Positions 3,301-15,798 of a stretch of DNA of 33,157 nt are shown here, one piece after another. Each line of letters starts with the position of its first letter. Position 1 is the stretch's first letter. The notes under the pieces are model-generated. The model saw only the letters and a list, made by a program, of their open reading frames with translations. It did not search any database and had not been told where the DNA came from. The translations under genes and the position numbers were made by a program. Source of the DNA: an uncultured Alphaproteobacteria bacterium (GTDB lineage: Bacteria > Pseudomonadota > Alphaproteobacteria > Geminicoccales > Geminicoccaceae); contig CALBAK010000100.1 of the NCBI GenBank assembly GCA_937926445.1, positions 1 through 33,157 of the forward strand, in the 5' to 3' direction.

Positions 3301-4764
3301 TCAGATCAGCTCGCCCGTGAGCTCGCTCTTGAGCCGCGTGCGAAAATCGTTGATCGCCCGGAAGGCGTCGCGCAGCGCTTCGCGCTCGCGCTCGGTGAGC
3401 GTGCGCGGGTCGAGGAAGTTGCCGACCGGGCGGCCCGCCTCGTAATCGGCGAGCTGTTGGCGCAGCTGCAGGCCGGTCACGAGAGCGAAGGCGGCGCGCA
3501 GATGGTCCGCCTCGTGCTCGCTCGTCTTGCCGAGGGCGAGCAGGGCGTCGAGCCGGGCGAGCGTACCGGTGGCGGCCACCCCGTGCCGTAGCGCCAGCAG
3601 GCGGACCGCCTCGGCGAGCGGCAGCGTGCCCATGAGCTTCAGATTGATCTGGCCGCGGTGCGCGGGGTCCTGCCGTTCGGTGATGAAGCGGTTGAACAGG
3701 CCCACCGCGGCGCGGTGGTCGGCCTGGATGCCGAACATCTCGCGCAGGAACATCGGGTTCTTGGGAGCCGCCTCGGTCACGAAAGCGCGCAGCTCCTCGG
3801 CGAGCGCCCGCTCGCCCCAGACCGGCTGGAAATCGAAGAAGATGTCGCAGGCGAGGAGCATCGCCTCGTGCTTCTTGCGCATCCAGCCCGCCACCTGCGC
3901 CTTCCACTGCGAAAGCGTCTTGCGCCAGAGCGGGTTGGTGGCCATGACCCCGCCCTTGCAGAGCGGGAAGCCGAGCTCGTCGAGCGCACGGGTCATCCGC
4001 TCCGCGCATTCGATGAACCAGGGGTCGATCGAGGCGTGCGCCTCGTCCGGATAGTCGGCCAGCACGAAGCCGTTGTCCTGATCGGGAAAGAGATAGCTCT
4101 CGCGCCGGCCCCCCGAGCCCATCACGATGGCCGCGAACGGCACCGGGGGCGGCCCCCAGCCCTCGGCCTCCATCCCGGCGACCACGAGGCGCAGGACGCG
4201 GCGGTAGATGTCGTTGTTGATGTCGGACACCAGCGCCTGGATCTCGGGGGCGGGCACCGCGTCGGCCAAGAGCGCGCGAGCGAGCTGGACCTGGGCCGCC
4301 TTGACTTGGGCGAGCCCGGCGAGGCTGTCCTCGTGGGTCAGCCGGTCGATCTGCTCGACCAGGTGACCGGTGGCGACCGCGAGCGCGTCGTGCAGGAAGA
4401 GCATGCCGACGAGCCGGCCGGCGTCGTCGACCACCGGCATGTGGCGCAGCCGCTTGCGACGCATGAAGCCGATCGCCTGGTAGAGCTGATCGTCGGCGCG
4501 GACGGCGAGCACCGGCCGGGTCATGAGGCCCTCCACCGGCTGCTCGCCGATCCGTCGGCAAGCGATGCGGCGAACCACGTCCTGTTCGGTCAGGATACCG
4601 CAGATCGTGCCGTCCGGATCGACGATCACGGCGGCCGAGGCGCGAGTCGTGGCCATCCGGGCGACCGTCTCGGCGGCGGTACTCGCGCGGGCGACGACGA
4701 CCGGTGCTTCGACCATGTGGTCGCGCACCAGGTGGCGGAAGACGGCCGTCTGGGAATGTGGCAT
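3301..4764 (-). CDS. CBS-domain DUF294 nucleotidyltransferase
   Basis: A 487-residue cytosolic protein with two CBS motifs at the N-terminus (about residues 10-130; GILTEQDVVRRI and a second copy containing HMPVVDDAGRLVGML). A putative nucleotidyltransferase domain follows, with GSGGRRE at 216-222 and acidic residues in PDQD (D228, D230), then a C-terminal DUF294 helical region. These resemble the GlnD/GlnE-type fold and are called signal-transduction proteins; the target is unknown. CBS pairs usually bind adenine nucleotides. The common N-terminal cNMP-binding domain of this family is absent. ATG 4764 is chosen because CBS homology begins just after it. The open frame extends upstream to 5019 but that part overlaps the divergent glycosyltransferase gene and looks non-coding. 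Confidence 0.85.
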   Translation of the reverse strand: MPHSQTAVFRHLVRDHMVEAPVVVARASTAAETVARMATTRASAAVIVDPDGTICGILTEQDVVRRIACRRIGEQPVEGLMTRPVLAVRADDQLYQAIGFMRRKRLRHMPVVDDAGRLVGMLFLHDALAVATGHLVEQIDRLTHEDSLAGLAQVKAAQVQLARALLADAVPAPEIQALVSDINNDIYRRVLRLVVAGMEAEGWGPPPVPFAAIVMGSGGRRESYLFPDQDNGFVLADYPDEAHASIDPWFIECAERMTRALDELGFPLCKGGVMATNPLWRKTLSQWKAQVAGWMRKKHEAMLLACDIFFDFQPVWGERALAEELRAFVTEAAPKNPMFLREMFGIQADHRAAVGLFNRFITERQDPAHRGQINLKLMGTLPLAEAVRLLALRHGVAATGTLARLDALLALGKTSEHEADHLRAAFALVTGLQLRQQLADYEAGRPVGNFLDPRTLTEREREALRDAFRAINDFRTRLKSELTGELI

Positions 4765-4915
4765 GGACCGGCTCCGCTGGCCAGGGTTTCGCCTCCATCT
4801 TGTCGGAGGGTTCGCCACCTCGCCATGCCGGCCTGAGGTCGCACCGGCGGGCGGGCGAACTGCCGAGGCGTACCGCCGGACGCCGGGATCTTGGCGCGGC
4901 GCGACGTTCGGATGT
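4765..4915. promoter_or_regulatory. Divergent intergenic region, probable promoters for DUF294 gene and glycan operon
   Basis: These 151 bases separate the start of the minus-strand DUF294 gene from the first plus-strand gene of the glycan operon. Because the next nine plus-strand genes are nearly contiguous, the operon promoter most likely lies here (or up to about 4987 if the TTG start of the first gene is used). No clear promoter boxes or operator repeats could be picked out by eye. Confidence 0.4.
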
Positions 4916-6052
4916 ATGAGGATCGCGAAGGCTCGACCGCCGATCCTTCGTGAATTCGGCACGCGCCCATCCGGAACGGCAGCACGTTTGAGCGAGCCCG
5001 GCCCCATCAGCCTCTGCATCGTGAACTACAACGGCGTGCGCCATTTGGAGCGCACGTTGCCGGCGGTCGTGGCGCTCGCCGACGAGTTCGCCGAGATCGT
5101 GCTGGTCGACAACGCCTCGACCGACGGCAGCGTCGCGTTCGTGGAGGCCGGCTTCCCGACCGTGCGGGTCGTCCGGCTCGACCGCAACGACGGTCCCGGT
5201 GCGGCGCGCAATGCCGGGCTCGCGGCGGCCCGCACCGAGCTCGTTTTGTTCGTCGACAACGACGTCGTGCCGGAGCCGGGCTGTGCCCGCAAGCTCGCCG
5301 AAGCGCTCGCCGGCAACCCGCGCGCCGCGGTCGCGGCACCACGCATCCTCTACGCCCACAAGCCCGACATCGTGCAGTACGACGGGGCGGACAATCACTA
5401 TCTCGGCCTGATGATCCTGCACCATCAGGACATGCCGCGCCACGAGGCAGATAGCCAGGTGCGGGCGGTCGACGGGGTGGTCAGCGCGGCCTTCATGGTC
5501 GTCCGTTCGCGGCTGCACGGCGAGGGCTTCGACCCGCGTTTCTTCATCTATGTCGAAGACCACGATTTCGGCCTCCGCTTGCGTCTCTTGGGGGCGGAGA
5601 TCCTCTCGGTGCCCGGCGCGCTCTGCCTGCACGGCGACGGTAGCGACGGACTTTCGGTTCGGGCCGTCGGCAGCTATACTCGACGGCGTGCCTATCTCTT
5701 GATCCGCAACCGTTGGTTGCTCCTGCTCAAGAACTACACGGCGCGCTCGCTGTTCGTGCTGGCCCCCGCCCTTCTTGCCTTCGAGCTCGCCCAACTCACG
5801 ATCGCCGCCAAGAAGGGCTGGCTTTCCGAGTGGTGGTCGGCGTTGCGATGGATCCTCCACCATCGCGGCGAAATTCTCGACGAGCGCCGACGGATCCAGG
5901 CCAAGCGGCGCCTCCCGGACCGTGCGCTCCTGCGCGGCGGCGCCGTTCCCTTCCGCGCCGAACTCACCACGAGCGCCGGCGAGCGGATCGCCCGCCGGCT
6001 CTTCGACGGTTTCGCCATCGCCTATTGGCGCGTGGCGGCCGGTCTGCTCTGA
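4916..6052 (+). CDS. Family 2 glycosyltransferase
   Basis: A GT2-type inverting glycosyltransferase of up to 378 residues, with a GT-A fold working at the cytoplasmic face of the membrane. The sequence starts ISLCIVNYNGVRHL, then VDNASTDGS (nucleotide-sugar binding) and LFVDNDVVPEP (the DXD-like metal motif). It continues with FIYVEDHDFGLRLR (the ED catalytic-base region) and one C-terminal hydrophobic stretch (FVLAPALLAFELAQLTIAA) that may anchor it. It resembles rhamnosyl or WcaA-like transferases, but the sugar cannot be assigned. Start is uncertain: ATG 4916 has a poor leader, while TTG 4988 lies just before the conserved beta-strand and has GGAACGG upstream. First gene of a nine-gene operon; the next starts 9 bases after the stop. 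Confidence 0.86.
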   Translation: MRIAKARPPILREFGTRPSGTAARLSEPGPISLCIVNYNGVRHLERTLPAVVALADEFAEIVLVDNASTDGSVAFVEAGFPTVRVVRLDRNDGPGAARNAGLAAARTELVLFVDNDVVPEPGCARKLAEALAGNPRAAVAAPRILYAHKPDIVQYDGADNHYLGLMILHHQDMPRHEADSQVRAVDGVVSAAFMVVRSRLHGEGFDPRFFIYVEDHDFGLRLRLLGAEILSVPGALCLHGDGSDGLSVRAVGSYTRRRAYLLIRNRWLLLLKNYTARSLFVLAPALLAFELAQLTIAAKKGWLSEWWSALRWILHHRGEILDERRRIQAKRRLPDRALLRGGAVPFRAELTTSAGERIARRLFDGFAIAYWRVAAGLL

Positions 6053-6061
6053 GCGGTCGTC

Positions 6062-7324
6062 GTGACGGTCGCCGAACCGGTCGCGACCGGGCAGCTCGTC
6101 GGCGCCCGGACCGCGTCGGCGCGCCGGCTGCGGATCTGCTACCTCGTGCCGGGGCACGGGCTGCTCTCGACCGTCGGCCCCTCGCGCAACGTCCTCTCGC
6201 TCGCGCGCGCTCTCTCCGCGTACGCCGACGTCACCCTCGCCTTCCGCTACCGGCTCGAAGACCCGACCCCGGAGGGCCTGCCCCTGATCGAAATCGAGCC
6301 GGAGCGGCGACCCGCGCTGGCGGTCGACGATTCGGCCATGCGCGGGATGGGTGTTCCGGAGTTCCTCCGCTACATGGCGCGGCTGCGCCGCTTCGTGCGG
6401 GAGGCCGACGGCCGCTTCGACGTGATCCTCGAGAAGAGCTGGCTGCTTTCCGGCCATCTCTCGGCCTACGGCCTCTCCCGGGGTGTTCCGGGTGTGCCGG
6501 TCGAGAACGTGGTGCCGAGCGCCGCCCGCCACGTCGATGCCGGGCTCCTCAAGCGGTTGCGGGTCGAGGTCGGCCGTCGGCTGGCCGGGCCGGCACTGCG
6601 TCGCGCACCGGTGGTGCTCGCCGAGACCGAGCAGCTCAAGGCCCAGATCGTGGCCGTCTGGGGCGTCGCCCCCGAGCGGGTCGCGGTCGTGCCGCTCGGG
6701 GTCGATCGCGAGCTCTTCCGACCGCGCGATCAGAGCGAAGCGCGACGCACGCTCGGGCTCGTCCTCGACCGCACGATCCTGCTCTATGTCGGCGTGCTCG
6801 ACGAGACCCACACGCTCGACGGGATCATCCAGGCCGTACTCACCGTGCGCCGGCCCGGCCTCGAGCTGCACGTGGTGGGCGACGGACCGCGCCGGGCGGC
6901 CTATGCGGAAAGGGCCTCGACCTCGGGCGGCACCGTGATATTGCACGGCCGCGTCCCGCATACGATCGTTCCGACCTGGATCGCTGCCGCCGATCTCTGT
7001 CTCGCACCCTACGAGCCGCGCGCGTTCGCCACCGGAGCCTTGGGCTATGCCACGATGAAGGTGCCGGAATATCTCTCGGTTGGCCGCCCGGTGGCGGGCA
7101 GCCCGAGCCCGCGCATGCGAGAGCTCCTGCGCGGCGGCGAGCTCGGCTTCGAGGTTCCCGCCGACGCCGCCTCCTGGTGCGCCTTCCTCGCGGAGCTGCC
7201 GGACCGCGAACGGCTCGCGGCGATCGGCCGCGCTGCCCTGCGCCACCCACAGCCCTCCTGGGACGACACCGCGCGCGGCTATCTCGCGGCGTGCGAGCGG
7301 GCTCTGGCGAGCCTCGGGAGGTAG
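6062..7324 (+). CDS. Family 4 (GT-B) glycosyltransferase
   Basis: A 420-residue retaining glycosyltransferase of the GT4 group. The N-terminal Rossmann half begins RICYLVPGHG with a Gly/Pro/Ser acceptor loop (GPSRNVLSLARAL). The C-terminal half has VPLGVDRELFRP, ILLYVGVLDETH, LHVVGDGPRR, ILHGRVPH and the sugar-nucleotide region MKVPEYLSVGRPV, where the usual EX7E acidic pattern is only partly present. Start is GTG 6062. It probably adds a sugar to the lipid-linked chain begun or extended by the GT2 upstream. The donor is unknown. The next gene follows after two bases. Confidence 0.87.
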   Translation: MTVAEPVATGQLVGARTASARRLRICYLVPGHGLLSTVGPSRNVLSLARALSAYADVTLAFRYRLEDPTPEGLPLIEIEPERRPALAVDDSAMRGMGVPEFLRYMARLRRFVREADGRFDVILEKSWLLSGHLSAYGLSRGVPGVPVENVVPSAARHVDAGLLKRLRVEVGRRLAGPALRRAPVVLAETEQLKAQIVAVWGVAPERVAVVPLGVDRELFRPRDQSEARRTLGLVLDRTILLYVGVLDETHTLDGIIQAVLTVRRPGLELHVVGDGPRRAAYAERASTSGGTVILHGRVPHTIVPTWIAAADLCLAPYEPRAFATGALGYATMKVPEYLSVGRPVAGSPSPRMRELLRGGELGFEVPADAASWCAFLAELPDRERLAAIGRAALRHPQPSWDDTARGYLAACERALASLGR

Positions 7325-7326
7325 GC

Positions 7327-7755
7327 GTGGACCTCTATCGGCTCGCGGCCTTCGCCCATCTCGTGCTCGCCGTGCTGGTGACCGGCTACGCGCTATTCTG
7401 GGCGATCATGGCCCTCGCCCTGCGCCGGGTCTGCACCCCGGCCGAGGTCGAGAGGCACCTCGCCACGGTCGCCGCCGCCCGCTGGCCGCACGTCGCCGTG
7501 CCGCAGCGTTTGCGCCTGCCTCTGCCCCTGGTGGGCTGGATCCTCCTCGCCGCAGCGATCGCGAGCGGGGTCCTGCTCGGCGCACTCGGTGGCCCGCACG
7601 GGCCGGCCCTTGCCTTCTGGCTCAAGCTCGCGGCCCTGCTCGCGCTCCTGGCACTGCATCGCTCGCTCGCCCGACGACCCCGTCCCGGTCCGGCCTGGCT
7701 CGGGCTGCCCCTCGTGCTGTTCGTGCTCGTCCTCTCTGTCCCGCTGGTCCGCTGA
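7327..7755 (+). CDS. Small four-helix membrane protein, first of a tandem pair
   Basis: A 142-residue very hydrophobic protein with about four membrane segments: AFAHLVLAVLVTGYALFW, LVGWILLAAAIASGVLL, AFWLKLAALLALLAL and LVLFVLVLSVPLV. GTG 7327 follows the upstream stop with a two-base gap, so translation is probably coupled. The N-terminal pattern LYRLAAFAHLVLAVLVTGY resembles the start of the next gene's product (LHRIVVAVHLVAMALWIGH), so the two may be diverged duplicates. The HLV and GYxLFW features recall CopD or DUF2269-type membrane proteins, where such His can bind heme or metal, but I cannot name the family. Location inside a glycan operon is unusual for that group. Confidence 0.7.
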   Translation: MDLYRLAAFAHLVLAVLVTGYALFWAIMALALRRVCTPAEVERHLATVAAARWPHVAVPQRLRLPLPLVGWILLAAAIASGVLLGALGGPHGPALAFWLKLAALLALLALHRSLARRPRPGPAWLGLPLVLFVLVLSVPLVR

Positions 7756-7764
7756 GGTGGCCCC

Positions 7765-8196
7765 GTGACCCTGCACCGGATCGTCGTGGCGGTTCATCTC
7801 GTGGCGATGGCGCTCTGGATCGGCCACATGCTGGTCTGGTCGATCGTCGCGGGACCCGCCCTCAAAAAGGTCGAGCCCGAAGCCACCGCGGCCTTCCTGC
7901 GCGAGCGAATGGTCTATCTGGGCGGGCTCGGCTGGCCGGCGCTCGCGATCCTCGTGCCGACCGGGCTCTACCTTCTCTGGCTGCGCGGCATCGGCCCGGT
8001 CGATCTCGTGACCTTGGGCTTTCTCGATCGGCCGGACGGCGGTCCCCTCGCGCTCAAGCTCGCGCTCGTGCTCTGGATGATCGTCTACCAGTCGGTGTGG
8101 GGGCACCGGCCGGCGCCGATCGCCAACTGGTTCAACATCGCGGCCGCACTTTCGATTCTCGCCTGCTCGGTCGTGATCGTGCGGGGTTGGTCGTGA
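7765..8196 (+). CDS. Small CopD-like membrane protein, second of a tandem pair
   Basis: A 143-residue integral membrane protein with about four helices. The first contains HLVAMALWIGHMLVW, with two His and two Trp arranged as in CopD-like or heme-bearing membrane proteins. Later helices include LGWPALAILVPTGLYLLW and ALKLALVLWMIVYQSVWGH. GTG 7765 starts nine bases after the previous stop. The 3' end overlaps the next gene in a GTGA (stop at 8194-8196, next start at 8193). Its role in a glycan operon is unclear; a redox, metal or scaffold function are all open. Copper import is only a loose guess from family resemblance. Confidence 0.7.
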   Translation: MTLHRIVVAVHLVAMALWIGHMLVWSIVAGPALKKVEPEATAAFLRERMVYLGGLGWPALAILVPTGLYLLWLRGIGPVDLVTLGFLDRPDGGPLALKLALVLWMIVYQSVWGHRPAPIANWFNIAAALSILACSVVIVRGWS

Positions 8197-9743
8197 GCCG
8201 GCGGGTCCTGGTCCTCGCCCTCGAGCTCGGCGACGGCGCCTTTCTGCGTCGCTTCGCCGCCGAGGGCGTGATGCCGACGGTCGCGGGGCTCTTGGCCCGC
8301 GGTCGTGCGGGCGCGCTCGAGACCCCGGCGGAGCTCCTGCACGTGGCCGCCCTGCCCTCGCTCTACACGGGCGTGGGACCGGCCCGGCACGGCGTGTGGT
8401 TCACCTTCCAGCCGGCCCCGGGGGTGCAGGGCTGGCGCCGCTTCGCCCCTGGCCTCTACGGTGCGCCGACCTTCTGGTCTCTGGCGGCCGCGGCCGGCCG
8501 GCGCTGTGTCGTGTTCGACACACCCTACGCCCATCCCGAGCCGGGCTTTGCGGGCGAGCTGATCCTCGAATGGGGTACCTGGGCGCAATATCTCGAGCCG
8601 GTCTCGCAGCCGGAAGCGCTCCTGGGCGAGCTCGTTGCCGCCGTGGGCCGACACCCGCTCGGCCTCGAGGCGCATAGGCTGGGTTTCGCCCCGCTCGATC
8701 CGGCCGACACGGCGCGCCGCCTCGAAACGGCGCTCGACGCCCGCGCCCGCGCCACCGCCTGGCTCCTGCGGCGGCGGCCCTGGGACCTGTTCGTCACCTG
8801 CCTCGACGAGACGCACCCGGCGGCCCATTACTGTTGGCTGCCCCCGGCCGACGGCACGCTCGAGCCCCCGGCGGAGCAGCCGCATCTGCGTGCCGTCTAT
8901 CGGGCCCTCGACCGCTGCATAGCGACGATCCTCGAGGGGGCGGGTCCGGGGACGACGGTCCTGCTCGTCTCGGGCGACGCGATCGGACCCAACCGGGCCG
9001 GCTGGCACCTCCTGCCGCGCGTTCTGGCCCGGCTCGGCCATCTCGTCTCGGCCGACCTCCGCGAAGGGTCGCCGGAGGCGTCGGCGGAGCCCGCCCGCGG
9101 CTTCGACCCGGTCAAGGCGGTCCGCGACCTGCTGCCCACGGATTTCCGCAAGCGGCTCGCCGATCTCTTGCCGCGCGGTCTGCGCGACAAGCTGGCCCGA
9201 AGGGTCGATACCGCGGCCATCGACTGGTCACGGACGCGGGCCTATTGCCTCATCACCGATCTCGAGGGCTGCATCCGGGTCAATCTGCGCGGCCGCGAGC
9301 CCCTGGGGATCGTCGCCGTGGAGGACTACCCCGCCCTTCTCGACCGGCTCGAGGCCGAGCTTTCGGCGCTCGTCGAGCCGGTGAGCGGCCGACCGGCGGT
9401 CGCCCGTATCCTCCGCGCCGACCGCGAGCTCGCGGGCCCGCGCAGCGCCTGGCTTCCCGACCTCGTCGTCCACTGGTCGCGCGAGCGACCGATCCGGAGC
9501 CTCGAGAGCCCCGCGATCGGGCGGGTCGAAGGCGTGTCGCCCGACCCACGGCCCGGCACCCACGCCGGTCCCGGCTTCGCCCTGCTCGCCGGACCCGACA
9601 TCGACCGCGGTGGTCTGCCGACCGATGCGCGGCTGGTCGACGTCGCCCCGACCGTACTCGCCGCCCTCGGCCTCGAGCCGCCTTGCGGGCTCGAAGGCCG
9701 GCCCTGGCCGCTGTCGCCGTCCGAGCGAGGAGAGCCTTCGTGA
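8193..9743 (+). CDS. Alkaline-phosphatase-superfamily protein A, atypical active site
   Basis: A 516-residue protein of the type I phosphodiesterase/nucleotide pyrophosphatase group within the alkaline phosphatase superfamily. Recognisable features: LxxGxxPxxARHG pattern (LYTGVGPARHG), a DETHPAAHYCW helix, LLVSGDAIGPN and PGTHAGPGFALLAGP. Against the usual family pattern the first metal Asp is Glu11 (LALELGD), the Thr/Ser nucleophile slot is His50 (LLHVAALPS), DxxxH has become HxxxH, and SDH has become SGD. The final His is kept. It shares these changes, except Glu11, with the paralogue two genes downstream. No signal peptide is evident, so a cytosolic role is likely. GTG 8193 overlaps the previous stop and the 3' end overlaps the next start as GTGA, indicating tight coupling. 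Confidence 0.82.
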   Translation: MSRRVLVLALELGDGAFLRRFAAEGVMPTVAGLLARGRAGALETPAELLHVAALPSLYTGVGPARHGVWFTFQPAPGVQGWRRFAPGLYGAPTFWSLAAAAGRRCVVFDTPYAHPEPGFAGELILEWGTWAQYLEPVSQPEALLGELVAAVGRHPLGLEAHRLGFAPLDPADTARRLETALDARARATAWLLRRRPWDLFVTCLDETHPAAHYCWLPPADGTLEPPAEQPHLRAVYRALDRCIATILEGAGPGTTVLLVSGDAIGPNRAGWHLLPRVLARLGHLVSADLREGSPEASAEPARGFDPVKAVRDLLPTDFRKRLADLLPRGLRDKLARRVDTAAIDWSRTRAYCLITDLEGCIRVNLRGREPLGIVAVEDYPALLDRLEAELSALVEPVSGRPAVARILRADRELAGPRSAWLPDLVVHWSRERPIRSLESPAIGRVEGVSPDPRPGTHAGPGFALLAGPDIDRGGLPTDARLVDVAPTVLAALGLEPPCGLEGRPWPLSPSERGEPS

Positions 9744-10774
9744 CTGTCCGCGTCCTGCAGATCGGTTCCGGCATCCGTGGCCGGCACTGGCTCGAATACG
9801 TGAAGGCCTTCGCCGGCACCGAGTGCGTGGCCCTGGTCGAGCCCGACCCGGCGAACCAGGAGAAGGCGCGTGCCCTGCTCGCGCCCTCCTGCCGGATCTT
9901 CGGCGAGCTCGGCGCAGCCCTCGCCGCGGTCGAGGCCGATGCGGCGCTGATCGCGAGCCCGGACCGGCTGCACGCCGAGCAGGCGCTCGCCTGCCTCGAC
10001 AGGGGCCTCACGGTCCTGATCGAGAAGCCTTTCGCGCCGACCGTGGCCGAGGCCGCGCGCGTGCTCGCCCGGGCCGCCGAGGTCGGCCGTCAGGTGATCG
10101 TGGCCGAGCAGTATCGCTTCTGGGCTGCCGAACGGACGGTGAAGAAGCTGATCGAGGAGGGCCGCATCGGTCGGATCGACCACTGTGTCTTCGTCGATCA
10201 TCGGGCGATGCGCGCCGCGAGCGAGGGCCCCTGGCTCGCCGAGGTCGATTATCCGCAGCTGCAGGCGGTGGCGGTCCACCATTTCGATTCGCTGCGGATG
10301 TGGTTCGGCCGGCCACATGCGCTTGCGGTCGAAGCGTGGCGCGCGCCCTGGTCGGACTACAAGGGCTTCGAGTGCAGCCAGGCGCTCGTGGACATGGGCT
10401 CGGTGAAGGTCTCGTATCTCGGTACGATGAGCGCGCCACGCTACGGCTGCTCGATCCGGATCGACGGCGAGCGGGGTGCCATCTGGACCAACCGCCGTTG
10501 GGTCTTCCTGCGCCGAGAGGGAAGCCGTTTCTTCGTGCCGGTACGCAACGTCGCGGTGCCGCCGGGTGACGAGAAGTCCTACCCCCAGGGCGGCACGACG
10601 GCGCTCCTCATGGCGCTCGTCGCGGCCGTGGAGCGGGGCGAGCCCGCCGAGACGCGCGGCGAGGACAATATCTGGTCGATCGCCATGCTCGAGGCCGCCA
10701 AACGGTCGGCCGCCGAGGGCCGCAGGGTGACCGTCGGCGAGGTCGGCGACGGCCGGTTCGTTCCACGGTCCTGA
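9740..10774 (+). CDS. Gfo/Idh/MocA family oxidoreductase
   Basis: A 344-residue cytosolic NAD(P)-dependent dehydrogenase of the sort that oxidises sugars, inositols or nucleotide-sugars. The Rossmann start is VRVLQIGSGIRGRHW, the family EKP motif appears as VLIEKPFAPT near residue 95, and AVHHFDSLRMWFG carries the usual catalytic histidine region in the second domain. GTG 9740 overlaps the upstream stop, with GAGGAGAG as ribosome site. Sitting between two related alkaline-phosphatase-superfamily genes, it may oxidise the same glycan or sugar-nucleotide they act on. The substrate cannot be read. A UDP-sugar 3-dehydrogenase role is one option because such genes often accompany surface-glycan operons. 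Confidence 0.87.
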   Translation: MTVRVLQIGSGIRGRHWLEYVKAFAGTECVALVEPDPANQEKARALLAPSCRIFGELGAALAAVEADAALIASPDRLHAEQALACLDRGLTVLIEKPFAPTVAEAARVLARAAEVGRQVIVAEQYRFWAAERTVKKLIEEGRIGRIDHCVFVDHRAMRAASEGPWLAEVDYPQLQAVAVHHFDSLRMWFGRPHALAVEAWRAPWSDYKGFECSQALVDMGSVKVSYLGTMSAPRYGCSIRIDGERGAIWTNRRWVFLRREGSRFFVPVRNVAVPPGDEKSYPQGGTTALLMALVAAVERGEPAETRGEDNIWSIAMLEAAKRSAAEGRRVTVGEVGDGRFVPRS

Positions 10775-10785
10775 AGGAGCTCGAG

Positions 10786-12369
10786 GTGCCCACCGCCGAC
10801 CGCCGTGTGCTGCTGATCGGGCTCGACAGCGCCGATGCCGACCTGATCGAGCGCTGGACCGCCGCCGGTCATCTGCCGACCCTGGCCCGGCTGATGGCCG
10901 AAGGCTCCTGGTCGCGCCTGCGGACCACCGCCGAGGTCCTGCACGTCTCCGCTTGGCCCACGATCTACACGGGTGCCACGCCGGGTCGGCACGGGCTCTA
11001 CCACGCCTACCAGGTGCGCGCCGGCGACCAGCGGATCCACCGGACGGATCCGCGCTGGATGGCCCTTCCGCCCTTCTGGCGCCGGCTCGACGAGGCGGGG
11101 CGACGCTGCATCGTCTTCGACGCCTTCATGGACTGCCGCCTGCCCGGGTTCGAAGGCGTGCAGATCGGCGAGTGGGGCACCTGGACCTGGTTCGGCGAGC
11201 CCTTTTCGAGCCCCGCCGGCCTGCGTGACGCCCTGATCCGCGAGGTCGGCCCCTACCCGGCGCCCGAACACAGCGCACAGGTCACCGTCCCCGACCAGGT
11301 CTGGTTCCGCGACCGCCTCGTCGAAGCCGCCGCCGCCAAGGGCCGTGCAACCGACTGGCTGTTGCGCAACCACCCGTGGGACATGGCCTTCGTCACCTTC
11401 GGCGAGCCGCACGGCGGCGGTCACTATCTCTGGCACACGGGCGATCCCGACTACCCCACCCATCGGCCGATCGCCGAGCTGCCGCATCCGCTGCTCGACG
11501 TCTATGCCGCGGTCGACCGCGCCATCGGCGATCTGCTCGCGCGTCATCTCGACGACCGCACGACCGTTTTGGTGGTCTCGGGAGACGGGATGGGCCCGAA
11601 CTATTCGGGCGCGCATCTGATGCCCGAGCTCCTCCATCGGCTCGATCTCTACCACGCACCGGGCGTCGGCGACGGAGCGGCCGAGAAGGTGCAGGCGGCA
11701 CCCAAGCGGAGCGTCGCGGTGCGACTGCGGGAGCTGATCCCGCTGCCGGTTCGCCAGTCGATCAGCCGCTGCCTGCCGCGCAGCGTCAAATATCGGCTCT
11801 CGCTCAAATGGATGAACGCCGATATCGACTGGAGCCGGACCAAGGCGTTCCCGATCCACAACAACAACGAGGGCTTCGTGCGCCTCAACCTCGTGGGCCG
11901 CGAGCCGCGGGGGATCGTCGAGCCGGGGACGGCACAGGAGGAGCTCCTGGCCATGTTGGCCGAGGAGCTCGCCGGCCTCACCAACCCGAGCAACGGCCGG
12001 CTCGCCGGCCGGGTGAGCCTGATCGACGCGCTCTTCCCCGGCAGCGAACGGCCGCACCTTCCCGACATCGTGATCAGCTGGGACGAGACGGCGCGGGTGC
12101 TGGACCGCGTTCAGGGCAGACGGGCCGGGCTCGTCTGCGGCAAGTGCGGCCACGAGACCCCCGCCTACTACACCGGCAACCATCGCCCGGTGGCCTTCCT
12201 GCTCGCGGCCGGCGCTGGCGTGAGTGCCGGCGCCCGCATCACCAACGGGCACATCTTGGATGTGCCGGCGACCGTGCTGGCGTTGCTCGGTGTCGACCCG
12301 CCGGCGCATTTCGAGGGACGCGAACGGACGGGCAGCCTCGTCAAGCGATCGTTAACCGAGGCCGTGTAG
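10786..12369 (+). CDS. Alkaline-phosphatase-superfamily protein B, atypical active site
   Basis: A 527-residue paralogue of the protein encoded at 8193. It starts VLLIGLDSADADLIERW, keeping metal Asp14. The segment LRTTAEVLHVSAWPTIYTG aligns without gaps to the usual LRSTxPPVTPxAWTSLYTG, putting His53 where the Thr nucleophile normally sits. Further motifs are GEPHGGGHYLWH (His209, His213; usually DxxxH), VVSGDGMGPNYSG (Gly266-Asp267; usually Asp-His) and GNHRP (His466 kept). EWGTW occurs in both paralogues. The changes look concerted rather than random, so the fold may use a different metal site or chemistry: hydrolase, phosphotransferase or a non-catalytic role. GTG 10786 has AAGGAGC upstream. 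No signal peptide is seen. Confidence 0.85.
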   Translation: MPTADRRVLLIGLDSADADLIERWTAAGHLPTLARLMAEGSWSRLRTTAEVLHVSAWPTIYTGATPGRHGLYHAYQVRAGDQRIHRTDPRWMALPPFWRRLDEAGRRCIVFDAFMDCRLPGFEGVQIGEWGTWTWFGEPFSSPAGLRDALIREVGPYPAPEHSAQVTVPDQVWFRDRLVEAAAAKGRATDWLLRNHPWDMAFVTFGEPHGGGHYLWHTGDPDYPTHRPIAELPHPLLDVYAAVDRAIGDLLARHLDDRTTVLVVSGDGMGPNYSGAHLMPELLHRLDLYHAPGVGDGAAEKVQAAPKRSVAVRLRELIPLPVRQSISRCLPRSVKYRLSLKWMNADIDWSRTKAFPIHNNNEGFVRLNLVGREPRGIVEPGTAQEELLAMLAEELAGLTNPSNGRLAGRVSLIDALFPGSERPHLPDIVISWDETARVLDRVQGRRAGLVCGKCGHETPAYYTGNHRPVAFLLAAGAGVSAGARITNGHILDVPATVLALLGVDPPAHFEGRERTGSLVKRSLTEAV

Positions 12370-12400
12370 CCTCCGCGACCGCTGCCGCAGGAGACGAGCG

Positions 12401-14302
12401 ATGTGCGGATTGGCCGGCGTGCTGTGCCGCGGCCCCGATATGGCGGGCGCGCAGTACGCGCCGGTCGTGGCGCGGATGTGCCGAGCGATCGCCCATCGCG
12501 GGCCCGATGACGAGGGGATCTGGAGCGACGGTCCGGTCTGCCTCGGCTCGCGCCGGCTCGCCATCCAGGACCTGTCGCCGGCCGGCCACATGCCGATGCT
12601 GGATCCGACCGGTCGCTATGCTCTCGCCTACAACGGCGAGCTCTACAACGCCGCCGAACTGCGCGAAGAGCTGCGGGCTCGCGGGATCCGCTTCCGCTCG
12701 ACCGGCGACACCGAGGTCGTCCTGCAGAGTCTGATCGTCTGGGGTCGGGAAGTACTGACCCGCTTCGCCGGGATCCTGGCCTTCGCTTTCTGGGACCGCG
12801 AGCGGCGCGAGCTCTGGCTCGCGCGCGATCACCTCGGTGTCAAGCCGCTCTATTATCTCGAGAGAGGCGACCTCCTGCTCTTCGCCTCCGAGATCAAGGC
12901 ATTGTTGCCGGAGCATCCCGACCCGGAGATCGACGATGCGGGCCTGATCGAATGGTCGCTCTACCGCAACCTCGACTTCCCGACGCGGGCCACGCTCGTG
13001 CGCGGGATCGAGGCCGTCCGGCCGGGCGAACTCGTGATCGTTCGGAACGGCCGACGCCACCACGCTTCCTACTTCGAGCCCAAGGACGCGGTCGATCCGA
13101 GGGAGTACGGACGCAGCCGCGGCTTGTCGCCCGAAGCCGTGGTCGAGGAGACCAAGGAGTGCCTCGAGCGGATCGTGCGCCAACAACTCGTTTCGGACGT
13201 GCCGGTCGGAACTCTCCTTTCGGGCGGGCTCGACTCCTCCGTGCTCACGGCGATGGCCGCCGAGGTCCGGAGCGACCTCACTGCTTTCCACGTCTCGATC
13301 GCGGGCTTCCCCGATCACGACGAGCGTCCCTTCGCCGAGGCTCTCTGCCGCGACAAAGGGCTCGCCTTCGTGCCGATGACGCTCGACGGCCCCGGGTTCC
13401 GTCGCGCCCTCGCTCGGACCGTGTGGCTGTCCGATCTGCCGCTCACCCATCCGAACTCGGTGGCCTATCATCTCGTCAGCCGGGTGGTCCGCGAGCACGG
13501 CGTGATCGTGGCGCTCGCCGGTGAGGGCGCGGACGAGCTGTTCGGCGGCTATTCCTGGGCCTATCGGCGCCGACGCCGCCTGCAGCGCCTGCGACCCTGG
13601 TTGCAACGGGTCCCGGCCGTCGTCCGCGAAACGCTCGCGCTCCTGCTCTACGCCGAGGCGGATCTGCCGGTGACTTCGATCCGCTTCCGCGACCTGTTGC
13701 CACCGAGTGTGGCGCTGGTCGATCGCTTCCAGCGTGAGGAGTGGCTCGCGACCTGTATCGAGGCCTACCGATTCGTGCCCGAGCCGGACGATCGCGAGAT
13801 CCTGGGCGCGATGCTCGCCGATTTGTCGGATTTCCTGAGCCCGCTCTTGCGCCGGCTCGACCGCACGAGCATGGGGGCCTCGGTCGAGTGCCGGGTGCCG
13901 TTCCTGGACCCGCGGCTGGTCCGCCGAGCCGTCAACCTTCCGCTCGACTACAAACTCGGCCGCCACGCCGACAAATGGGTGTTGAAGCGGGTGGCCACGC
14001 GCTACATGCGCAAAGAGCTCGTGTTTCGGCGCAAGATGGGGTTCCCTCTGCCCCTCGCCGACTGGGCGCGGCCGTTCGCGCGGCCCGACTTTTTCGAGGA
14101 GGGTTTCTTGCGCACCCGGCTCGGTTTCGGCCGGCACGGTGTGGCTCGCCTGGTCGACCGGGCCCAGCGATGGATCCACGCCTTCTTCGGCCTCGTGACC
14201 CTCGAGATCTGGGGGCGAATGAACCTCATGGGTCAGAGCCTCGGCGAGGTCGAGACCTGGCTCGCCGGCTTCGAGCCGCGACCGCGGACCGGGCGATCCT
14301 GA
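12401..14302 (+). CDS. asnB: Asparagine-synthase-type glutamine amidotransferase
   Basis: A 633-residue AsnB-like enzyme. The mature N-terminal nucleophile Cys2 is present (MCGLAG) and begins a class II glutaminase domain with RGPDDEG and YNGELYN. The C-terminal synthetase has the ATP-binding PP-loop SGGLDSS at 274-280, GEGADELFGGY, and the late motif SVECRVPFLD. In polysaccharide operons such enzymes often transfer ammonia to a sugar uronate or other carboxylate instead of making asparagine, which is the likelier role here. ATG 12401 has CAGGAGACGAG upstream. The stop overlaps the flippase start (TGATG). Substrate is inferred from context only. Confidence 0.9.
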   Translation: MCGLAGVLCRGPDMAGAQYAPVVARMCRAIAHRGPDDEGIWSDGPVCLGSRRLAIQDLSPAGHMPMLDPTGRYALAYNGELYNAAELREELRARGIRFRSTGDTEVVLQSLIVWGREVLTRFAGILAFAFWDRERRELWLARDHLGVKPLYYLERGDLLLFASEIKALLPEHPDPEIDDAGLIEWSLYRNLDFPTRATLVRGIEAVRPGELVIVRNGRRHHASYFEPKDAVDPREYGRSRGLSPEAVVEETKECLERIVRQQLVSDVPVGTLLSGGLDSSVLTAMAAEVRSDLTAFHVSIAGFPDHDERPFAEALCRDKGLAFVPMTLDGPGFRRALARTVWLSDLPLTHPNSVAYHLVSRVVREHGVIVALAGEGADELFGGYSWAYRRRRRLQRLRPWLQRVPAVVRETLALLLYAEADLPVTSIRFRDLLPPSVALVDRFQREEWLATCIEAYRFVPEPDDREILGAMLADLSDFLSPLLRRLDRTSMGASVECRVPFLDPRLVRRAVNLPLDYKLGRHADKWVLKRVATRYMRKELVFRRKMGFPLPLADWARPFARPDFFEEGFLRTRLGFGRHGVARLVDRAQRWIHAFFGLVTLEIWGRMNLMGQSLGEVETWLAGFEPRPRTGRS

Positions 14303-15798
14303 TGGCGCCAATCGCCGGCCCCGGATGGCTCGGGCCGTTCCTGGTGGCGGCCGGCCAGTTCGCCCTCGCCGCCGCGGGCTTCCTCGCCGCTCTTCTGCTC
14401 GCGCGGGAACTCGGCCCGGCGACCTACGGGGTGTGGGGGATCGTCTACGCGATCCTCGCCGGGGTCGAACAGATCGGGAGGCTCGGCATTCCGCAGGCCA
14501 CGAGCCGCCTCGTCGCCGAGGCGGACGGCCGCGACCCGATCCTGGAGCGCCGGGCGACCACGCTCGTGGCGATCCTGTACCTTGCGCTCGGGGTGGCCAT
14601 GTGGCTGGCGGCTCCCTGGCTCGCCGAATTGTTCGCCATCCCCGACGGGACCCGCCTCCTGCGGATCGCTTCTCTCGACCTCGTACCCTTCGGCCTGTTC
14701 GCGGTGACGATCGCGATCCTCAACGGCCGACGCGACTTCGCCGTCGAGGGCCTCGGCAACCTGGTCTACGCCGGAACCCGCATCGCGGGTCTGTTGGTAG
14801 TCGCTCCCTTCGGGCTCACCATCGAGGCGGCCCTCGTGGTGACCATTCTCTCCTCGCTCGCCGCCTGCATCGCCACGCTGCTGCGGCTGGGCCCGGGCGT
14901 GTTGCGGCCGCGGTTCGACGGTTTCCGGCCGATCCTCGCGGTCTCGGCGCCGGTGGCGGTCGCCTGGACCGTGTCGAGTATGTTGAGCAATCTCGATCTC
15001 TGGGCCCTCAACGCCTTCGGCGGCGCGGTCGCTCCCGAAGTCAAGGGCTGGTACACGGCTGCCCTCAATCTCGCCCGTCTGCCCAATCTTTTGGCTTTCG
15101 TCGGCACCTCGATCCTGGTCCCGACGATCGCCCGGGCGCTCGGTCTCGGTGATCGCACGGGTGCGCTCATCGCCTTGCGCCACGGCGCGACCCTGTTGTT
15201 GGCGCTACTCGTCCCGACGGTTGCGATCGGCGCGATCGAAGCGCGCGCTCTCCTCGAGTTCCTGTTCACGAGCCTCTATGGTGACGGTGCGCCTCTGCTC
15301 GCCGTTCTCCTCGCGGCCCACGGTGCCTTCTACACGATCTTCGTGACGCTCGGATCGATTCTGCTCGCGGCCCGCCGGGAACGGGTCTCGGCGTTGCTCG
15401 CGGTCGTAGCGGCCACTCTCGCCCTTCTCTTCTTGCCTGTCGGGACCGTGCTCGGCGGGGCGCTCGGAACCGCGCTCGGTGCCCTCGGTGCGGGCATCGC
15501 GAGCTGCGCGCTCTCCGCCTGGAGCGTTCACCGTAAGATCGGGCCGCTGATCGACCCGGGAGCGGCCGCGCGCATCCTGCTCGCCACCGGGGTCGCAGCC
15601 GCCTTCGCCTCGGCCGTTCCGGGAAAGGACGCCTGGCTCCTCGCGGAGCTCGCGGGTGCCGGCATTCTCTATCTCGGAGTGCTGTTCGCAACCGGTGTGC
15701 TCGGACCCGTGCTCGGCGGCTCGGTCGCCGCAGGCCTGGCCGGAACGCGGCATCGGGAACCGCCTGCGCCGATGGACGGGCGCAGCCCGAGCGTGTAG
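14302..15798 (+). CDS. Wzx/MATE-like polysaccharide flippase
   Basis: A 498-residue polytopic inner-membrane protein with 12 or more hydrophobic segments and the opening GQFALAAAGFLAALLLARELGPATYGVWGIVYAIL, typical of the polysaccharide biosynthesis (RfbX/Wzx, MurJ-like) transporter superfamily. Such proteins move lipid-linked oligosaccharides from the cytoplasmic to the periplasmic leaflet. It is the last gene of the operon, its ATG overlapping the stop of asnB, and is followed by a short hairpin. A Wzy polymerase or ligase is not seen in the window, so the polymerisation or attachment step must be elsewhere. Confidence 0.88.
   Translation: MAPIAGPGWLGPFLVAAGQFALAAAGFLAALLLARELGPATYGVWGIVYAILAGVEQIGRLGIPQATSRLVAEADGRDPILERRATTLVAILYLALGVAMWLAAPWLAELFAIPDGTRLLRIASLDLVPFGLFAVTIAILNGRRDFAVEGLGNLVYAGTRIAGLLVVAPFGLTIEAALVVTILSSLAACIATLLRLGPGVLRPRFDGFRPILAVSAPVAVAWTVSSMLSNLDLWALNAFGGAVAPEVKGWYTAALNLARLPNLLAFVGTSILVPTIARALGLGDRTGALIALRHGATLLLALLVPTVAIGAIEARALLEFLFTSLYGDGAPLLAVLLAAHGAFYTIFVTLGSILLAARRERVSALLAVVAATLALLFLPVGTVLGGALGTALGALGAGIASCALSAWSVHRKIGPLIDPGAAARILLATGVAAAFASAVPGKDAWLLAELAGAGILYLGVLFATGVLGPVLGGSVAAGLAGTRHREPPAPMDGRSPSV

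Follow-up and report, generated by a model that had tools for sequence, protein, structure and literature searches.

Alkaline-phosphatase-superfamily paralogues with a rewritten active site in a polysaccharide gene cluster of an uncultured Geminicoccaceae bacterium

The alkaline phosphatase (AP) superfamily is a familiar example of catalytic divergence. In this superfamily the nucleophile is described, in a published account, as a serine, a threonine or a cysteine-derived formylglycine at the end of a conserved helix, and the ENPPs are described there as having one zinc ion on 2 aspartates, one histidine and the nucleophile, and another on 2 histidines and one aspartate (PMC11677397). Here we describe 2 members of the superfamily, proteins A and B, in which these positions have been rewritten. 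They are encoded on contig CALBAK010000100.1 (assembly GCA_937926445.1) of an uncultured bacterium of the Geminicoccaceae (Alphaproteobacteria), and the whole contig, 33,157 nucleotides with 71% GC, is referred to as the window. The closest named relatives of the window genome were metagenome-assembled genomes (MAGs) of the same family, HOT.CON.139 at 89%, KatS3mg117 at 88% and three more at 80%.

A preliminary description of this DNA had taken A and B for paralogous members of the superfamily, which was borne out: both reading frames exceeded the gathering cut-off of PF01663 (23 bits), and the core fold of the superfamily was recovered in both models. The model of B had a predicted local distance difference test score (pLDDT) of 87.7 and a predicted template modelling score (pTM) of 0.90, and that of A had values of 83.9 and 0.86. 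The fold of B matched XacNPP 7n1s (Foldseek E 1.2e-16), 2gsn (VIA Z 26.0), ENPP7 (Z 26.4, root-mean-square deviation 3.6 over 345 residues) and PafA (Z 26.1), and the best fold match of A in the PDB was the phosphonoacetate hydrolase 1ei6 (E 1.3e-12). A and B are old paralogues, and we regard the statements made here on their identity and conservation as firm.

The type I phosphodiesterase/nucleotide pyrophosphatase (NPP) family (PF01663; XacNPP 2gsn, ENPPs) has the fold, the motif order, the last metal histidine and the second histidine of the DxxxH motif in common with both proteins, and the first aspartate in common with B. However, NPP enzymes contain a threonine nucleophile, DxxxH and SDH, whereas A and B contain histidine, HxxxH and SGD. 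The best profile match in the PDB was to phosphonoacetate hydrolase PhnA (3szy, 3t02, 1ei6; E 8.8e-5), whose threonine nucleophile column is histidine in A and B. This match covered only about 100 N-terminal residues, and no solved close relative was found in the PDB. Against the phosphonoacetate hydrolase model TIGR02335, B scored 22.3 bits compared to a cut-off of 407.55, and A had no match at E 0.001. Bacterial and haloarchaeal genomes also contain canonical relatives, which were homologous to A and B over the full length (hhalign probability 100). Some of these were located near glycosyltransferase, AsnB or sulfotransferase genes. Unlike A and B, these relatives hold all seven classical residues (51 rows of the panel below); those on plasmids are annotated as 'alkaline phosphatase family protein'. 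Searches of the open-licence PMC literature showed no paper on the clade to which A and B belong.

The 2 genes and their active-site positions, all on the + strand, are the following, with the positions taken from the alignment and, where stated, the model.

8193..9743, + strand, protein A, AP-superfamily paralogue with rewritten active site, 516 amino acids, GTG start (PF01663 32.8 bits)
8223..8225, + strand, A E11, first metal-ligand column (canonical Asp)
8340..8342, + strand, A H50, nucleophile column (canonical Thr/Ser)
8814..8828, + strand, A H208-x3-H212 (canonical DxxxH)
8970..8978, + strand, A S260-G261-D262 (canonical SDH)
9561..9563, + strand, A H457, last metal His, retained
10786..12369, + strand, protein B, AP-superfamily paralogue with rewritten active site, 527 amino acids, GTG start (PF01663 98 bits)
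10825..10827, + strand, B D14, first metal-ligand column
10942..10944, + strand, B H53, nucleophile column, at the N-terminus of model helix 53-62 (alignment, model)
11410..11424, + strand, B H209-x3-H213 (canonical DxxxH), inside model helix 207-215 (alignment, model)
11578..11586, + strand, B S265-G266-D267 (canonical SDH)
12181..12183, + strand, B H466, last metal His, retained

The preliminary description had read histidine at the nucleophile position, HxxxH, SGD and a retained last metal histidine, and the 2 alignments made here agreed with it on each of these. In a MAFFT panel of 103 homologous rows, with columns numbered by the residues of B (14, 53, 209, 213, 266, 267, 466), the 51 canonical rows had D14, T/S53, D209, H213, D266, H267 and H466 in the same columns. 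The remaining 52 rows comprised 32 with the A/B pattern, 16 with HxxxH and other changes, and 4 odd ones (L020, L040, L042, L089). A profile of the A/B rows aligned to 13 canonical rows with no gaps at all five motifs (hhalign, probability 100, E 9.1e-86). In neither alignment were the classical threonine, aspartate or histidine ligands found at other places in the A and B sequences, the outcome that had been named as grounds for rejecting the earlier assignment. Furthermore, the profile aligned to the PDB without gaps such that H53 met the threonine of 3szy and an alanine in 3t02, which supports the register for H53 only. A shift by one residue, pairing D267 of B with the aspartate of SDH, was rejected because the ungapped register gives SLHGMGPN, SAHGMGPS and ALHGM in sister rows. 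The first metal-ligand aspartate, which the earlier reading had passed over, is retained in B and replaced by glutamate in A.

The A/B-pattern rows were picked by H53, H209, H213 and D/E267. Since these columns defined the rows, the evidence lies in their forming a single clade and not in the invariance of the columns. A chance estimate for the invariant histidine columns (4e-5) was set aside, as three of these four had served to pick the rows. The poorly aligned rows L040, L042 and L047 were excluded from both the earlier tree of 93 rows and the second one of 98 rows, and the long-branch canonical rows L110 and L118 also from the second, which was built without the seven active-site columns. 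In this tree, all 48 HxxxH rows were placed on one side of a single branch (support 99), and the 32 A/B-pattern rows formed one clade with no other row inside (Shimodaira-Hasegawa-like approximate likelihood ratio test 100), requiring one change. The 50 rows outside the HxxxH side had aspartate at column 209 in 49 cases and alanine in L020, giving 2 changes at this column altogether, one of which is the change from D to A in L020. The earlier tree agreed, with 42 HxxxH rows at 100 and 31 A/B-pattern rows at 99.

The mean pairwise identity of the 32 A/B-pattern rows was 46%. The nucleophile column was histidine in A, B and all 32 rows of their clade, in place of serine, threonine or formylglycine, and the aspartate column of DxxxH was histidine throughout the 48-row clade, in place of the aspartate of the classical site of 2 histidines and one aspartate. 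The classical second site of 2 aspartates and one histidine was likewise altered in the 32 rows, with G (26) or A (6) at column 266 and D (30) or E (2) at column 267, such that the counterpart of SDH was SGD, SAD or SGE. Column 14 was D in 20 rows and E in 12, and H466, E207, N272 and H69 were also invariant. Further polar residues that are rare or absent in canonical rows (Q76, R86, D112, N272, H277, R366) were conserved, and this pattern suggests that the pocket may have been rebuilt.

H209, H213 and H466 are retained in the remaining 16 HxxxH rows. Column 53 is T, S, A, V, D, N, P or H there, and columns 266-267 read LH, AH, SH, DL, LQ or GP. Three further copies outside the tree (L171-L173) contain HxxxH and LH, with V, V and R at column 53, and a fourth (L174) duplicates a copy in L147. 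As the sister rows keep the 3 histidines and vary at column 53, the His3 core is the constant of the HxxxH clade and the nucleophile column is free. Such living in-between relatives, with HxxxH and Thr, Ser, Ala, Val, Asp or other residues, make the passage from a covalent to another mechanism testable on natural proteins.

In terms of the classical sites, the site-1 columns have changed from Asp-His-His to His-His-His (H209, H213 and H466 in B). At site 2, where canonical rows have Asp, Asp and His besides the nucleophile, the columns now hold Asp/Glu 14, His 53 and Asp/Glu 267, and column 266 is Gly/Ala. The make-up of site 2, 2 carboxylates and one histidine, is thereby kept, with the histidine now in the nucleophile column and the second carboxylate in the old histidine column. 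This ligand pattern would fit a new metal site, one of the options raised earlier, and a permuted second metal site is possible. The reading that we favour, with a probability of roughly 45%, is a nucleophile-free, metal-water mechanism with the histidine as a ligand. The covalent Thr/Ser mechanism would have been abandoned in the A/B clade and the two-metal centre rebuilt with permuted ligands, which could be an economical route to keep 2 metals and yet remove the nucleophile. Site 1 would hold its metal via 3 histidines, H53 would bind the site-2 metal or act next to it as a general base, and would not serve as a nucleophile, and a metal-bound water or hydroxide would attack or activate the substrate directly, with no covalent enzyme intermediate. 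Dinuclear hydrolases of the metallo-beta-lactamase type have a His3 site, a mixed second site and a metal-bound hydroxide as the nucleophile, in a fold unrelated to that of A and B. The likeness to the centre proposed here would thus be one of idea alone, namely the His3 metal and the metal-bound hydroxide nucleophile.

The genes for A and B are part of what appears to be a single operon at about positions 5009-15798 on the + strand, in the order GT2, GT4 (family 2 and family 4 glycosyltransferases), 2 small membrane proteins (TM1, TM2), A, Gfo/Idh, B, AsnB and Wzx. The other members are:

5009..6052, + strand, family-2 glycosyltransferase, domain part of the open reading frame (ORF) 4523-6052 (PF00535 E 6.1e-25)
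6062..7324, + strand, family-4 type glycosyltransferase (PF13692 E 1.2e-15)
7327..7752, + strand, small membrane protein TM1, four hydrophobic segments, start approximate (hydropathy)
7765..8196, + strand, small membrane protein TM2, weakly CopD-like (PF05425 E 0.014, under cut-off)
9740..10774, + strand, Gfo/Idh/MocA oxidoreductase (PF01408 E 8.7e-19, PF02894 E 2e-9)
12401..14302, + strand, AsnB-type glutamine-dependent amidotransferase (TIGR01536 389 bits, cut-off 267)
14299..15798, + strand, Wzx/MATE-type polysaccharide flippase, start approximate, the codon at 14299 being CTG (PF13440 E 2.9e-16, PF01943 E 1.4e-15)

The true start of the GT2 reading frame is probably near 5000, as its 5' part overlaps a gene on the opposite strand. 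The stop codon of TM2 overlaps the GTG start of A, and the stop codon of A overlaps the start of the Gfo/Idh gene, both in the form GTGA, and AGGAG occurs a short way before the GTG start of B. TM1 had no match in a Pfam search, and a relative of TM2 in locus L065 matched PF05425 at E 1.9e-5, likewise under the cut-off. It was also noted that TM1 and TM2 could be an electron-transfer partner of the dehydrogenase. Neither A nor B contained a membrane-like segment by hydropathy, with no signal-peptide predictor applied.

For neighbour counts, loci of the A/B pattern (HHH) were limited to 13: L059 was left out because the contig end truncates A, L063 because it shares a contig with L146, and L071 because of a masked stretch. 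GT4 was present in 12 of these, AsnB in 11, GT2 in 8 and Wzx in 7, and relatives of TM1 and TM2 were located directly before A in 12, L069 being the exception. The order A, Gfo/Idh, B, AsnB was found in 10 of 14 genome-contig loci (L058, L060-L062, L064-L068, L070) and also in L059, where A is cut by the contig end, but not in L063, L069 and L071. In the Gammaproteobacteria MAG L146, a GMC oxidoreductase, 2 membrane proteins, A, Gfo/Idh and AsnB are encoded in sequence, and the gene for B lies at another place on that contig, next to GT2 and GT4. The GMC gene of L146 (3763-5373) is additional to Gfo/Idh, and GMC neighbours were also observed at other HxxxH relatives (L159, L165, L167, L168). 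In G431 the pair is preceded by genes for a carbamoyltransferase, GT2, two GT4 and Gfo/Idh.

Apart from L069, the genes thus have a conserved place among glycosyltransferase and, often, flippase genes. Together with the active-site changes, which are alike in distant bacteria, this points to an altered enzyme serving the synthesis of a surface sugar polymer. Canonical loci contained GT2 in 14 of 23 cases and GT4 in 6 of 23, many of the glycosyltransferase matches being weak. As such matches also surround canonical copies, the glycan setting is partly common to both groups, and it is the dehydrogenase link that differs.

A Gfo/Idh or GMC gene was present in the fetched stretch of 13/13 HHH loci (L069 weakly), 6/17 other HxxxH loci and 1/23 canonical loci. 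This amounts to 19 of 30 HxxxH loci compared to 1 of 23 canonical ones (Fisher p 8e-6), or 18 of 30 without the weak L069 (p 3e-5), and the other HxxxH loci taken separately gave p 0.03, in counts that treat related loci as independent, set flanks of 9-10 kb for most HHH loci against about 6 kb for most others, and use Gfo/Idh and GMC profiles seeded partly from the counted loci. With Pfam's own models, no Gfo/Idh or GMC gene was found within 6.5 kb of 21 canonical copies (one genome each), 2 of which had Gfo/Idh at about 10.5 kb. Of 15 genomes examined that hold an HxxxH copy, 7 (G005, G734, G740, G003, G430, G428, G732) had a GMC gene at most 5 kb from it. The hint of linked sugar chemistry that had been drawn earlier from the Gfo/Idh gene is strengthened by these counts. 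Under the metal-water reading, A and B would be cytoplasmic and act, either in successive steps or as one heteromer, on a sugar intermediate that is linked to a nucleotide or a lipid and that the dehydrogenase produces or uses up.

The 3 properties of the counts named above weigh against this reading, as do several observations on the proteins and loci themselves. In the model of A, H50 does not lie in a helix and is placed between helices 46-49 and 54-59. The ligand geometry is read from alignment columns only, and an aspartate at the old histidine column and a histidine at the old threonine column may fall short of the metal. Six of the 16 other HxxxH rows carry threonine (L081, L133, L055) or serine (L082, L156, the third copy in L147) at the nucleophile column, so not every member of the wider HxxxH clade has lost the nucleophile. 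In the Desulfobacterales MAG L069 (8845-12551), the adjacent pair lies beside genes for pyruvate/ketoacid:ferredoxin oxidoreductase (POR) and amino-acid dehydrogenase; no GT, AsnB or Wzx gene was seen in this neighbourhood, and only a short Gfo/Idh-like ORF (134 amino acids, 65 bits) was found directly behind the pair. This setting counts against a strict glycan role. Finally, a family member with an unclassified active site (G428:C49) has a Gfo/Idh gene 3.4 kb away.

The alternative that survives best holds that A and B are neither hydrolases nor transferases, and that their metal site polarises a ketosugar supplied by Gfo/Idh or GMC for epimerisation, isomerisation or beta-elimination. The dehydrogenases at all 13 HHH loci (weakly at L069) and at 6 of the 17 other HxxxH loci, compared to one of the 23 canonical loci, speak for it, as do the two GTGA overlaps in the window and the Gfo/Idh gene that overlaps the AP gene in G017. 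The best NCBIfam match of the Gfo/Idh protein in the window, inositol 2-dehydrogenase, followed by sugar 3-dehydrogenases, is in line with it, all of these matches being far below cut-off. However, the remaining 11 of the 17 loci have no sugar dehydrogenase neighbour in the fetched flanks, the loci behind the argument are not independent, and we know of no precedent in the AP superfamily for such chemistry. We consider this alternative unlikely. It is likewise unlikely that all parts would hold jointly, i.e. that A and B would be a nucleophile-free metalloenzyme pair with His3 and permuted ligands, acting by such non-phosphoryl chemistry on an oxidised sugar intermediate in polysaccharide assembly.

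The preliminary description had also proposed that the shared changes are coordinated and do not reflect decay. Among four Geminicoccaceae sequences, the ratio of nonsynonymous to synonymous substitutions (dN/dS, NG86) was 0.11-0.17 for B and 0.17-0.23 for A; compared to the more distant L061 it was 0.31-0.50, on a dS that seems too low for that distance. The single clade, the purifying selection and the conserved operon together rule out simple decay, in agreement with the proposal. Purifying selection is nevertheless compatible with dead pseudo-enzymes that the polymer machinery retains as sugar-binding or scaffold subunits, and the nucleophile and 2 classical ligands have been lost. On the other hand, a dead site is not expected to fix new His and Asp/Glu residues at identical places in distant bacteria, and of the four rewritten columns three (53, 209, 267) are now His or Asp/Glu and one (266) is Gly/Ala. 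This makes inactive proteins distinctly unlikely. The histidine-based mechanism suggested earlier, in which H53/H50 would transfer phosphate, sulfate or another group via a phospho-histidine-like intermediate on a single His3 metal, has in its favour that H53 coincides with the nucleophile column and stands at the start of the conserved helix in the model of B, and that the histidine marks the entire 32-row clade, but it is very unlikely, because sister rows with the same His3 core carry A, V, N, D, P, R, S, T or H in this column, so that the core does not need one nucleophile there, and the former second site, with 2 carboxylates left, is complete only with H53, which makes a ligand role with metal-bound water the likelier of the two.

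The A/B pattern was rare, and was found in records titled Alphaproteobacteria, Gammaproteobacteria, Gemmatimonadetes and Desulfobacterales, with the taxonomy as titled; the true placement of the MAG titled Gemmatimonadetes may differ, since the phylum assigned to it in the genome collection comprises just seven genomes. Relatives of B were detected at E 0.001 in 17 of the 31 genomes of the window's family, and the order-level search covered the same 31 genomes. Among 398 evenly drawn Pseudomonadota, the A/B profile matched 2 at E 1e-40, the window's own genome and G067, which contains a canonical copy; absences are soft here, as no more than 3 or 5 candidates per genome were scored at phylum level, three of them in this search. 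Among 79 relatives of the Gammaproteobacteria MAG, 5 were positive, and the full A/B pattern was found only in the MAG itself. For a set of polysaccharide clusters, the automatic label 'alkaline phosphatase family protein' may mislead on mechanism. A phage or mobile origin of A and B was rejected, with no match in the phage collection and none of 18 pattern matches on viral contigs confirmed as a relative.

Two relatives with other active sites were also noted. A homolog on a Planktothrix plasmid (L055, 3617-5263) contains threonine at the nucleophile column, HxxxH and SLQ, a state that looks intermediate, though on a long branch. Its gene has a phytanoyl-CoA dioxygenase gene on one side and nadB-asnB on the other, and the 11 kb fetched contained no gene annotated as a glycosyltransferase. 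A homolog in the window's family (L020, 1462-3039) has G, T, A, H, D, C and H at the seven columns and lies outside the HxxxH clade, representing another alteration of the active site, separate from the HxxxH rows. In the phylum group of G428, each of the 7 genomes had between three and six wider-family matches at E 1e-30, some in open frames of more than 900 amino acids.

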